This document shows, piece after piece, positions 11,667-26,530 of a stretch of DNA of 64,000 nt. The notes beneath the pieces are model-generated. The model was given only the letters and a program-made list of their open reading frames with translations, did not search any database and was not told the origin of the DNA. A program made the translations under genes and the position numbers. The number at the start of each line of letters is the position of its first letter. Within the stretch, counting starts at the first letter, position 1. Origin of the DNA: Trichodelitschia bisporula (Eukaryota > Ascomycota > Dothideomycetes > Phaeotrichales > Phaeotrichaceae); the NCBI GenBank assembly GCA_010356995.1, contig ML996707.1, forward strand, positions 186,001-250,000. Direction: 5' to 3'.

Positions 11667-11997
11667 GGAACTGAGAGGACCCAAGACTGGAGGAGGGCTG
11701 AGGTAACCGCATTGCATCGCATACAAATTAGAAGGCCCCATGCAAGATAGACTCTTAAGTAACAAGAATCCCGCATATGCGCCCCGTATCTGCCTGCCCA
11801 ACACGGTTAGTCAGCCGGCCGGCGGCCTCCGCGCCCAACCCGCGCGCCACATGCCGATCTCCGCGGCGCCACAAGAAACTAATCGCTGACTCCGCTTCTC
11901 TCCCCGCACTCCAACTGCACAGCTTTAAAGTCTGCCACATCGCCACTCGCTCGCCTTCTCCGAGAGTTCAGATGTCCTGTACACTCTCCCAGCCACC
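11667..11997. other. intergenic region
   Basis: This short tandem spacer lies between the phosphatase stop and the molybdopterin gene start. A pyrimidine-rich stretch just before the ATG looks like a transcription start region. Nothing else is seen. Confidence 0.4.
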
Positions 11998-14511
11998 ATG
12001 CTCCGCCGCACACCCCTCCGCTCCTTCGCGACCTGCGCCCGCCGCGCGAAACCAGTCCCGAGCGTGCACCCCACGGGCCCCAGTGGCGACGCTGTGGTGC
12101 AGCCGCCGGCCGCCCGGCGGAGAGAGATGAAGCCGTTTTCGGAGTTTTTGACAGATGGATTCGGGCGGCAGCACAACTACCTGCGGATCAGTATCACGGA
12201 GCGGTGCAATCTGCGGTGTGTGTACTGCATGCCCGAGGGTGTGTTGCCCCACCCTCTCACCGAACCCCGGCTAACCAGAGCCAGAGGGCGTGCCCCTCTC
12301 TCCTCCCGCCCACCTCCTTACTACGCCTGAAATTACATACCTCTCCGCGCTCTTCGTCTCCCAGGGCGTGACTAAGATCCGACTCACGGGCGGCGAGCCC
12401 ACGGTGCGCAAGGATATCGTCCCGTTGATGCGTGGGCTGGGCGCGCTGCGTAGCCAGGGCTTGAAAGAATTGGCGCTGACGACGAATGGGCTGGCGTTGG
12501 GGCGCAAGTTGGATGCGATGGTGGAGGCGGGGCTGACGGGGATCAATCTCAGCCTTGACACGCTCGACCCGTTCCAGTTCCAGATCATGACAAGGCGGAA
12601 GGGCTTCGAGCGCGTGGTGGAGACTATGGACCGGATACTGGAGATGAAGAAGTTGGGTGCGCGGTTGACACTCAAGGTTAACTGCGTGGTGATGCGCGGA
12701 ATTAATGAGGCGGAGGTGGTGCGCTTTGTGGAGCTGGGGAGGGAGAAGGATGTCGAGGTGCGGTTTATCGAGTATATGCCATTTGGGGGCAATCGGTGGG
12801 CGGAGAAGAAGATGGTTTCGTACCGCGAAATGGTCGAGCTCATTCGGGCGAAATATCCGGATCTACACCGTGTCCGCGGACATCTCAACGATACCAGCAA
12901 AACGTACCAGGTGCCTGGGTTTGTGGGCAAGGTTGGCTTCATTACGAGCATGACGGAGAACTTTTGCGGCACGTGTAACCGCCTTCGGATTACGAGCGAC
13001 GGTAACCTCAAGGTGTGTCTACATGGCAATGCTGAGGTCTCGCTGCGCGACGTCCTGCGCGAGGCGAATGAAGGCCGACCTATCGATGAGGCTGCCTTCG
13101 AGGCCATGCGGGCGATTGAGCGGGAGCAGCAGCACTCTGGAATACTGGGTGATACTCCACTAGGATGGGGCGCGCGGGAGGCGCGACTGCTGGGTGTCAT
13201 CGGGCAGGCGGTGCGGCGCAAGAAGGAGAAGCACGCGGGCATCGGCCAACTGGAGAAGATGGAGAATCGGCCTATGATATTGATCGGTGGGTGATGCTCC
13301 TTTCCTCTTGGGTTCGGGTTACGCAGCGTTATCTTTGGCATATACTTGACTTTGGCCTGGGCTTGGGTTGGCGCTTTGGATTTAGGCTCAGGCTTGGGGT
13401 GCTTGCGTTGAGCGTGGAGATACCATATAGGATGGCAATGGCAGTTTTCGTTCACCGCTAACCTGTGCCGATGTCCCTAGATCGCGCTACTCGAACGCCC
13501 TGGAGCCATATCCCATCGCACCTTCTCAGCCCTTCCCTCCATACTCACCAACTCCGCTTTGCAAGCACCTGGATCCGCAATTCACGAAGGCAACAGGAGC
13601 CTGTAGACCCCGGATCCCGAAGGTCCTTCAAGCTCCGTAAAATGTTTCTGGAGTCGGTGAAACACTTCATCACTGAACTCGATGACCTTCTCCGCTTCGT
13701 CCGCTTGGCTCTCTTTGCCGTCTTGTCCAAGAAACAGGTCTCGGAAATGCAGGAACGGGATGTTTCGCCTGACGAGTTGGCAGAGGCGGTAGAGCGGGCG
13801 CTGACTCCACCGGCGCTGACTCCACCGGAACACGTCCTTGAGGAGCGCACGCTCGACGATCTGCGCACTATCTATTCCCCGGAATGGGGGCAATGGGTGC
13901 CGGGCCAGGGGTGCGAGTTCGGGGTTCAGGGGAAGGGGAAGGTGGATGGGCGGAGAGAGTTCTCTACGTCGTCGCGGCGGCAGAATGAAGGCGATGACGA
14001 AGCGGGGAAAGGGAGTCAACTGACGCACCTCACGCCCACCGGCACCGCACACATGGTGCACGTAGGCGGCAAACCATGGACCGCGCGCTCCGCCATCGCG
14101 TCTTGCGAAGTGCACTTCACGTCCGCAGCCACAATCGAGCTCGTCCGGTCCGCAGCACTGAAAAAAGGCGACGTTCTCGCCGTAGCGCGGATAGCGGGGA
14201 TCCAGGCCGCGAAGCTGTGTCCCAGCTTGATTCCGCTGTGTCATCCGATTCTAATTGATGGCGTGGATGTGGACGTCGAGGTCAATGAGGGGATGGGCAG
14301 ATACGGCGGTGTTCGGGTCAGGGGCACGGTGCGGTGTACCGGGCCTACGGGTGTGGAAATGGAGGCACTGTGCGCGGTCACCGGCGCTGCACTCGCGGTC
14401 GTGGATATGGTCAAGGGTGTTGATCGGGGAGTGAGGATTGAAGGCGTGGGCGTGGTGGAGAAGAGGGGTGGACGGAGTGGGGTTTGGAGGGCGGATGAGG
14501 GGACGGAATAG
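11998..14511 (+). CDS. cnxABC: bifunctional molybdopterin precursor synthase, MoaA-MoaC fusion (cnxABC/MOCS1 type)
   Basis: It makes cyclic pyranopterin monophosphate from GTP, the first step of molybdenum cofactor synthesis. Three exons (11998-12238, 12285-13286, 13481-14511) encode 757 residues. The MoaA half is a radical-SAM enzyme with [20 protein letters not shown] and the second cluster [20 protein letters not shown]. The MoaC half, about residues 590-757, has [24 protein letters not shown] and [12 protein letters not shown]. The start [16 protein letters not shown] looks like a mitochondrial presequence, and a second such stretch ([16 protein letters not shown]) opens exon 3. The second intron donor lies inside the codons for a terminal Gly-Gly-stop, so an unspliced message would end as free MoaA (see findings). 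In Aspergillus nidulans cnxABC is likewise a two-domain gene. Confidence 0.9.
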
Positions 14512-23927: not shown

Positions 23928-26530
23928 ATGGCCCCGGGACGGGCCGTACTTGCGCTCGCGCTGCTCGGCGCTCTGCTTGTACGCTGCGGACATGCGAAGG
24001 AGCAGGCACCCGCCTTTGATCCATTGGACTACGTCGACCCGCTAATCGGAACCGGCGCCGACGGTACGAACTTCAGCGCTTCAGCGCTCCCCTCCTCCCC
24101 TCCTCATATCCTCCCGCTAACACCACATCACAGGCCACGTCTTCCCCGGCGCCACCCTCCCCTACGGCCTCGCCAAACCCGGCGCCGACACCGACAGTTC
24201 CGACAACCAAGGCGGGTTCGCCTCCTCCCCTCCAGCCAACATAACCGGCTTCAGCATCTTACACGACAGCGGGACAGGCGGCGCGCCCTCTTTGGGAAAC
24301 TTCGCGCTCTTTCCGCATGCCAGCTGTGCGGGGGGCGTGCTGGAGCGGTGCGTGTTCAGCAAAAAGGCGCGGAAGACGGGGTATGTGAACGGGAGTGTGG
24401 TGTCTAGACCTGGGTATTTCGGGGTGAAGTTAGCGACGGGCGTCGGGGTGGAGATGAGCGCGACGAGGAGGGCGGGGTTATTCAGGTTTTCGTTTGAGGG
24501 TGAGGGGGAGCGGAAGGGCGGCCCGGTGCTGGTGATGGATTTGACGGATTTGAGCGATAGTCGGCAGGACAATGCCACTATTACGGTGGACAGCCGCGGC
24601 CGCATGACGGGGGGCGGCGTGTTCAAGCCGAGTTTTGGGTCTGGGAGCTATGCTGCGTTTTTTTGTGCGGATTTTCAGGGGCCGGTGGGGGAGAGCGGGG
24701 TTTGGATTAATGATCGGGCGAGTAGGGCGGTGCGGAATGTTACGGTGAGTAGGAGTATTAATAATTATCCGCTGCCTGCGGGGGGGTGGGTTGGGTTCAA
24801 GGAGGGGACGAGGGAGGTTGTGGTTAGGGTGGGGGTTAGTATGGTTTCTAGCGCCAGGGCGTGCGAGAGTGCGGAGGGGGAGATTCCGGGGTGGGATTTT
24901 GAGGGGATCAGGGCAGCTGGAGAGGCGGCGTGGAGGGAGAAGATACGCCCGATTAGGGTGAGCGAGGAGGGCGTGGAGAGGGATATGCTGGTCAATTTTT
25001 ACAGCGGGATATATCGCACGATGGTCAATCCGCAGGACTGGACGGGGGAGAATCCGCTCTGGAGCAGCACGGAGCCGTACTTTGACTCGTTTTACTGGTA
25101 TGCCCCCCCCCCCCCCCCCCCTTAGTTTTCAGTGCTAACAGCGGTGGGGCAGTCTATGGGATAGTTTCCGCAGCCAGATTCCGTTTTTGGTTTTATTGGA
25201 CCCGAAGCAAACAGCCCGCATGATCCGCGCCCTCATCGACATATACCGGCACGACGGCTGGCTCCCGGACTGCCGCATGTCTCTCTCGCGGGGCTACACG
25301 CAGGGTGGGTCGAACGCGGATATCGTGCTCGCGGACGCGCACGCCAAGGGCTTAACCTCCGGGATCGACTGGGAAGCAGGCTACGCCGCCGTGGTCAAAG
25401 ACGCAGAGATCGAGCCCTTTGACTGGTGCTGCCATGGCCGGGGTGGGCTGGACAGTTGGCACGAGCTCGGGTACATCCCGGTTGGCGATTTCGATTGGAA
25501 GGGCTTCGGGACGATGACGCGGAGCGTGAGTCGCACGCTGGAGTATGCGTACAACGACTTCGTGATTGCGGGGATGGCGGCGCGGTTAGGGGGCCGGGAG
25601 GGCGATGTCGAGAAATACACGCGCCGGAGTGGGGGGTGGTTGAATCTGTTCAACCCGTCTATGCGCAGCGCTATCAACGGGACGTCGACTAATTTCACCG
25701 GCTTTTTCCAGCCGCGGTACGCGAACCGCACGTGGGGATATCAGGACCCGCTGAAATGCAGCAATATCGATCCGAATCCGAATTCGGTGTGTAGTTTGCA
25801 GAATACTGGCGCGGAGACGTTTGAGTCGAGTGTCTGGGAGTATGGGTTCTTTGTCCCGCATGACCAGGCTACGCTTATTGGCACGCTGGGCGGGCCGGAG
25901 ACGTTCGTTCGGCGACTTGATTTCTTGCACGACAGCAACATTACCTACATCGGGAATGAACCGGCGTTTTTGACAGTCTTTCAGTATCACTACGCCGGCC
26001 GGCCGGGGCTCAGCGCAAAGCGCGCGCACGCGTACATCCCGTCCTCCTTCTCCCCGACACCAGCCGGCCTGCCCGGGAACGACGACAGCGGCGCAATGGG
26101 CTCATTCCTCGCCTTCGCCATGATGGGCGCATTTCCCAACCCTGGACAAGACGTCTACCTCCTCACGCCTCCCTTCTTCGCCAGCGTGAGCATCACCTCG
26201 CCTCTCACTGGCAAAACGGCCACGATCCGGAATGCCAACTTCGACAGCACCTACAAGGCTATCTACATCCAGAGTGCGACGCTAGATGGGGCGCCGTACA
26301 CGAAGAATTGGATTAGGCATGATTTCTTTTTGAGGGGGGGGACGTTGGTGTTTGTTTTGGGACGGAATGAGAGTACGTGGGGGACGAGGGAGGAGGATTT
26401 GCCGCCGAGTGCGGGGAGGTATGGATATGAGGTGAGGAATCTGACGGCGAGGGTGAGGGCGGGGACGGTGCGGTATAAGTATAGTGAAGGTTTGGAAGCG
26501 GGTCAGCAGTATTGGGGGGCGGGGAGGTAG
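23928..26530 (+). CDS. GH92 alpha-mannosidase, secreted
   Basis: Three exons (23928-24063, 24134-25097, 25153-26530) encode 825 residues. The start carries a clear signal peptide (MAPGRAVLALALLGALLVRC then GHA). Early motifs are YVDPLIGTGADGHVFPGA and FSILHDSGTGG. Intron 2 is bridged as DSFYCLWDSFRSQIP. The catalytic-acid motif WHELGYIP lies near residue 468 and the general-base/calcium motif GNDDSGAMGS near 675; MSLSRGYTQGGSNADIVLAD is also typical. GH92 enzymes are calcium-dependent exo-mannosidases that trim alpha-1,2 (some alpha-1,3 or 1,6) mannose from N-glycans or mannans. Intron 2 (25098-25152) contains an uninterrupted run of 19 C. The next gene is a mannosyltransferase in the same direction, 426 bases away. 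Confidence 0.92.

Follow-up and report, generated by a model that had tools for sequence, protein, structure and literature searches.

Results

A MoaA–MoaC gene with three exons

The window analysed in this study is a stretch of 64,000 nucleotides (64 kb) from Trichodelitschia bisporula, and all coordinates are positions within it, on the + strand unless stated otherwise. A gene of the cnxABC/nit-7/MOCS1 type occupies positions 11998–14511 (+) and was modelled with three exons at 11998–12238, 12288–13286, and 13481–14511. Its N-terminus (19 residues, 11998–12054) is presequence-like by composition, as residues 1–30 carry a net charge of +6 and not a single acidic residue. The CxxxCxxC motif of the radical SAM domain, which was read from the sequence and is accompanied by a Pfam Radical_SAM match, lies at 12205–12228. 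The first intron (12239–12287) comprises 49 nt, and an alternative acceptor at 12281 would also preserve the frame. Exon 2 (12288–13286) encodes the remaining MoaA domain and closes with base 1 of the first of two terminal Gly codons. It is followed by the last intron (13287–13480, 194 nt), hereafter the switch intron, by a fusion linker without a Pfam match (13481–14013), and by the MoaC domain including the stop codon (14014–14511).

Upstream of the gene, an out-of-frame ATG at 11972, 26 nt ahead of the start codon of MoaA, begins a reading frame that runs across this codon; it would be relevant only if transcription began upstream of 11972. An antisense open frame of 401 codons (12271–13476, − strand) runs opposite the MoaA exon and is probably a by-product of codon usage. 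A GH92 glycosidase gene at 24121–26530 is interrupted at 25125/25139 and thereby falls into two open frames; a short intron is the presumed cause. A comparison of intron lengths was dropped, as the open-frame joiner, which proposed 11 candidate introns in the window, proved unreliable. It missed intron 1 of the MoaA–MoaC gene, where it placed a false intron of 337 nt, and it placed another one on the opposite strand. Therefore, we make no claim on intron lengths.

The Gly-Gly-stop codons of MoaA overlap the 5′ splice site

The first-pass annotation of this DNA had proposed that the last intron opens one base into the codons Gly-Gly-stop. Both the coordinates and the reading proved right. The codons GGT (13286–13288), GGG (13289–13291), and TGA (13292–13294) overlap the donor GTGGGT (13287–13292), and the intron continues to a branch-like CTAAC (13458–13462) and the acceptor TAG (13478–13480). 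The reading frames also agree with the two products that had been predicted from this arrangement. Without splicing of the last intron, the gene encodes a protein of 415 residues with the C-terminus NRPMILIGG, so that MoaA ends exactly at Gly-Gly. Upon splicing, the junction G|AT encodes Asp in place of Gly-Gly, a junction stretch of 15 residues is read through, and MoaC follows in frame up to the stop codon at 14509–14511, resulting in a protein of 756 residues.

In the 64-kb window, the string GGTGGNT with the remainder of a stop codon occurs five times on the + strand, which contains 3511 GT dinucleotides, and twice on the − strand. Thus, a Gly-Gly-stop at a donor is unlikely to arise by chance, and the conclusion gains weight from the residues preceding it, as these align with the conserved MoaA tail described below. 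A second GT is present at 13291; its use would shift the frame and add about 52 other residues after Gly-Gly. Furthermore, the MoaA stop shares its last base with an ATG (TGATG, 13292–13296), which opens a frame of 55 codons (13294–13461) ending within the branch-like CTAAC. This frame terminates 9 nt upstream of another intronic ATG (13471–13473), which shares its reading frame with MoaC, as stated by the annotation, and has a C at position −3.

The unspliced frame ends with the conserved MoaA tail

The C-terminal Gly-Gly gates the chemistry of MoaA. To place the tail among relatives, the window MoaA, devoid of its N-terminal part, was aligned with eight plasmid MoaA sequences picked from the 40 records listed among 279 plasmid records with a match, and we scanned the genome_contigs set with an alignment. 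The scan returned at least 596 stretches, of which at least 591 were confirmed as relatives, and the best 80, all bacterial according to their record titles, were kept. The ending M-x-x-x-Gly-Gly-stop was found in 80 of these best 80 loci; the scan pattern was set at the RxTGGEP motif, away from the tail, and the ranking query itself ended in Gly-Gly, which makes a slight bias possible. All eight aligned plasmid MoaA sequences end in Gly-Gly-stop, as does one further plasmid locus, and M329, G333, and G334 are invariant in all nine rows of the alignment. When the window MoaA was used for scanning, 46 pattern matches in genome_contigs and two in viral_contigs were obtained, none of which was confirmed. 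Judging from the conserved tail of its relatives, the unspliced frame thus stops at precisely the point expected for the C-terminus of MoaA.

The domain content agrees with this assignment. The unspliced product matches PF04055 (Radical_SAM, E = 9.5e-29), including the CxxxCxxC motif, and PF06463 (Mob_synth_C, E = 1.4e-36), and it carries the terminal Gly-Gly that is lost in the spliced frame. The best match of the MoaA half is TIGR02666 (moaA) with 270.3 bits, a score just under the cut-off of 284.05 that was obtained for a query without the N-terminal part. The PF01967 (MoaC) match spans the full profile (positions 1–136 of 136), and TIGR00581 (moaC) scored above its cut-off. As described for N. 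crassa nit-7 in the consulted sections of PMC7232280, Gly-Gly and stop are encoded by an intron, removal of which results in an in-frame fusion. The same source calls the double glycine functionally relevant for NIT-7A. The consulted parts of PMC5352715 contain nothing on the MoaA tail.

Single matches for MoaA and MoaC in the assembly

The 25.65-Mb assembly contains a single Mob_synth_C match and a single MoaC match, both within this gene, and a protein search of the assembly placed the MoaC match here again. If MoaA needs its terminal Gly-Gly, the enzyme should, given the single MoaA match, be translated from mRNA in which the beginning of the switch intron is retained. The molybdenum cofactor pathway is probably in use, as MoaE, MoCF_biosynth, a sulfite-oxidase-like gene, and a xanthine dehydrogenase/aldehyde oxidase-like gene are present in the assembly.

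One gene with Oxidored_molyb/Mo-co_dimer domains was found, and this is the sulfite-oxidase-like one. Its two Mo-domain open frames, which were scored to the exclusion of any flanking cytochrome b5 part, reached 96.6 and 108.2 bits for sulfite oxidase versus 36.5 and 65 bits for nitrate reductase. A nitrate reductase was not detected in the 25.65-Mb assembly. NirB (TIGR02374) gave three matches, all confined to profile positions 27–280 and none above the cut-off (best score 118.4 versus 578.35 bits), and the nitrate transporter (TIGR00886) gave seven weak matches, again none above the cut-off (best score 44.3 versus 311.7 bits); both are bacterial models, the best candidates were scored exon by exon, and the assembly may be incomplete. 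Apparently, nitrate assimilation is absent from T. bisporula.

The donor is not weak in U1 pairing

We considered that the need to encode Gly-Gly forces a poor 5′ splice site, but this idea was rejected on the basis of the pairing energy with U1. The duplex amounts to −9.4 kcal/mol for the switch donor, compared with −5.6 kcal/mol for the donor of intron 1 and −14.0 kcal/mol for the consensus, all values being energies only, computed with plain uracil instead of pseudouridine. Retention is therefore not predictable from the splice site, as the donor is not weak by this measure. Among the 12 possible GGT-GGN-stop spellings, the three containing GGG pair best with U1, and the gene uses one of them. 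In the 80 bacterial moaA ends (the best 80 of at least 591), the Gly-Gly codons start with GGTGG in 25 cases and with GGTGGG in six. The spelling GGT-GGG-T of Gly-Gly-stop is a fair donor in itself, and the site thus keeps both of its functions.

RNA structure as a regulator was rejected as well. The intron with its flanks folds like shuffled sequences (z = 0.01), 95 of 200 shuffles being at least as good. A search of positions 12900–13700 against Rfam (E up to 1) retrieved HOTTIP_1 alone, on the other strand and with 19 bits versus a gathering score of 50, which we take as a chance match. Thus, neither the donor nor the fold nor the Rfam search hinted at what determines retention.

The fusion linker contains two presequence-like stretches

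Between the splice join and the onset of the alignment to solved MoaC, the fusion has 178 residues. The beginning of the last exon had been noted to resemble a mitochondrial presequence. In terms of composition this holds true: the respective 14 residues (13552–13593) fall in a 30-residue segment whose net charge (+7, with two acidic residues) exceeds that of any other in the fusion. However, an internal signal need not be sufficient for import, since N. crassa NIT-7AB without its N-terminal signal stayed cytosolic according to the consulted sections of PMC7232280.

A second stretch of 11 residues (13951–13983) sits ten residues before MoaC and is a candidate mitochondrial processing site. The motif R-x(0,1)-F-[AS]-[ST], picked after the sequence had been viewed, was found three times in the fusion versus 0.07 times expected from 2000 shuffles; it occurs at the N-terminus and in both linker stretches. 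Neither the octapeptide-type processing motif (one found, 2.6 expected) nor R-x-[FYL]-[AS] (two found, 1.3 expected) is enriched in the fusion. Because the motif was chosen post hoc and the looser motifs are not enriched, we offer the site as a suggestion. It would fit the cleavage after import described for N. crassa (PMC7232280) as well as the internal targeting motif and cleavage described for human MOCS1AB (PMC9607355).

Discussion

Two probable products from one gene

The first-pass annotation had suggested that the fungus chooses between free MoaA and the fusion by retaining or splicing the last intron. This proposal is supported by the anatomy of the junction, by the conservation of the tail, by the finding of one match each for MoaA and MoaC, and, by analogy, by the genetically tested precedent of N. 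crassa nit-7 (PMC7232280), and we consider it very probable that one gene gives rise to two products in this manner, with the fusion carrying MoaC into mitochondria. From a single detected gene of the cnxABC/nit-7/MOCS1 type, one pre-mRNA would thus be turned into two products. If the intron is kept, translation would stop right after Gly-Gly, releasing a free, catalytically competent MoaA (GTP 3′,8-cyclase). If it is removed, Gly-Gly is lost, and the MoaA half of the resulting MoaA–MoaC fusion would be expected to be inactive, serving mainly as a carrier of MoaC into mitochondria. MoaC (cPMP synthase) would then be freed by cleavage of the linker, plausibly at or near the 11 residues preceding the MoaC domain. 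By analogy with N. crassa, we infer the use of both mRNAs, the inactivity of the fused MoaA half, the import, and the cleavage, whereas the presumed position of the cleavage site is drawn from the linker sequence itself.

A bicistronic reading of the retained mRNA, in which MoaC is additionally made from ATG 13471 by reinitiation, would account for the in-frame position of this codon and for the presequence-like stretch downstream of it, and traces of MOCS1B arising in this way have been described for one human mutation (PMC9607355). The annotation had likewise regarded a separate MoaC as possible. The in-frame ATG stands, but its use is the weaker part of that claim: another ATG overlaps the MoaA stop, its 55-codon frame ends just ahead of ATG 13471, and the C at −3 also speaks against it. 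Moreover, the consulted sections of PMC7232280 report that NIT-7B made from an internal ATG in N. crassa is not mitochondrial and that NIT-7A plus NIT-7B do not restore wild-type-like growth. We therefore regard a contribution of reinitiation as unlikely.

Constitutive splicing would reduce the Gly-Gly-stop at the donor to a relic or a coincidence and would require the fused MoaA to be active without a free Gly-Gly. It is favoured by the U1 pairing of the donor, which is stronger than at intron 1, and by a branch site and an acceptor that look sound. However, the tail matches the M-x-x-x-Gly-Gly-stop of all 80 bacterial MoaA loci (the best 80 of at least 591), the underlying string is rare among the GT dinucleotides of the + strand, the genome lacks a second MoaA match, and both forms are required in N. 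crassa according to the consulted sections of PMC7232280, which makes this explanation very unlikely. The formation of free MoaA from an mRNA shortened at an intronic poly(A) site, instead of full retention, is compatible with the sequence and would yield the same MoaA ending in Gly-Gly, but we consider it highly improbable, as none of the six A-rich hexamers sought occurs in the intron and the non-spliced form of N. crassa was measured with intron-including primers and found among sequenced 5′ RACE products (PMC7232280).

Under the preferred reading, namely the choice between retention and splicing of the switch intron, the question arises what the choice is for. In N. crassa, the non-spliced nit-7 form rises under nitrate induction (PMC7232280). 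That an increase of this kind applies here is unlikely. The Neurospora nitrate logic may not hold for T. bisporula, because a nitrate reductase was not detected in the assembly and the NirB and transporter matches stayed under their cut-offs; if nitrate assimilation is absent, nitrate cannot be the signal for the switch in this fungus. A wider proposal, to which we give somewhat less than even weight, is that the switch has been kept without nitrate assimilation and that its purpose is not a nitrate response but the supply of two mitochondrial enzymes, MoaA with its Gly-Gly and MoaC delivered by means of a discarded MoaA half, the latter being released at the presequence-type site of 11 residues directly before the MoaC domain. 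Should T. bisporula indeed lack nitrate assimilation, the switch is separated from nitrate regulation, and what determines the retained fraction becomes directly testable.

Comparison with known systems

In the literature searched, PMC7232280 (Wajmann and others 2020) was the sole paper recognised, by title and beginning of the abstract, as dealing with the fungal splice forms of this gene; it credits the two-transcript model of nit-7 to its reference 7. The comparison with N. crassa nit-7 given here is based on the published description. Reference 7 of the nit-7 paper, the source of the two-transcript model, is reportedly Probst 2014.

The two fungal genes share the order MoaA then MoaC, an intervening intron coding for Gly-Gly and stop, and the choice between free MoaA and the fusion (PMC7232280). 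According to the consulted sections of that paper, the non-spliced nit-7 mRNA yields NIT-7A, whose double glycine is encoded by intron 1, and the spliced mRNA yields NIT-7AB with an inactive A domain; NIT-7AB is imported and subsequently loses this domain. A nit-7 variant unable to make the form spliced at 1460–1696 showed no significant growth on nitrate (PMC7232280). The genes differ in that nit-7 has a single intron (1460–1696, 237 nt) with a second variant lacking 1469–1696, whereas the gene of T. bisporula has two introns with a switch intron of 194 nt, and in that the unspliced form of N. crassa is induced by nitrate, whereas genes for nitrate assimilation were not found above cut-off in the assembly examined here. 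Provided that nit-7 is numbered from its ATG, its intron, too, would start in phase 1 at 1460. According to PMC7232280, a bicistronic transcript has been discussed in the literature for Aspergillus nidulans cnxABC, a homolog of nit-7.

Human MOCS1 likewise produces free MOCS1A and the MOCS1AB fusion from one gene by alternative splicing (PMC9607355), in agreement with the annotation. The splicing takes place in exon 9 of MOCS1, in contrast to the retention of a whole intron proposed here, and within MOCS1AB a mitochondrial targeting motif precedes MOCS1B, which is freed by cleavage (PMC9607355). For N. crassa, the mammalian import model fails according to the consulted sections of PMC7232280.

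As the mechanism has been published for N. crassa nit-7, the gene described here is a further example and not a new mechanism, and it extends the Neurospora case to another fungus. It illustrates how the same nine bases can accommodate both a 5′ splice site and the codons of an essential C-terminal motif. To the Neurospora case it adds that nitrate assimilation is apparently lacking and that the linker contains two presequence-like stretches, one of which is a possible release site for MoaC.
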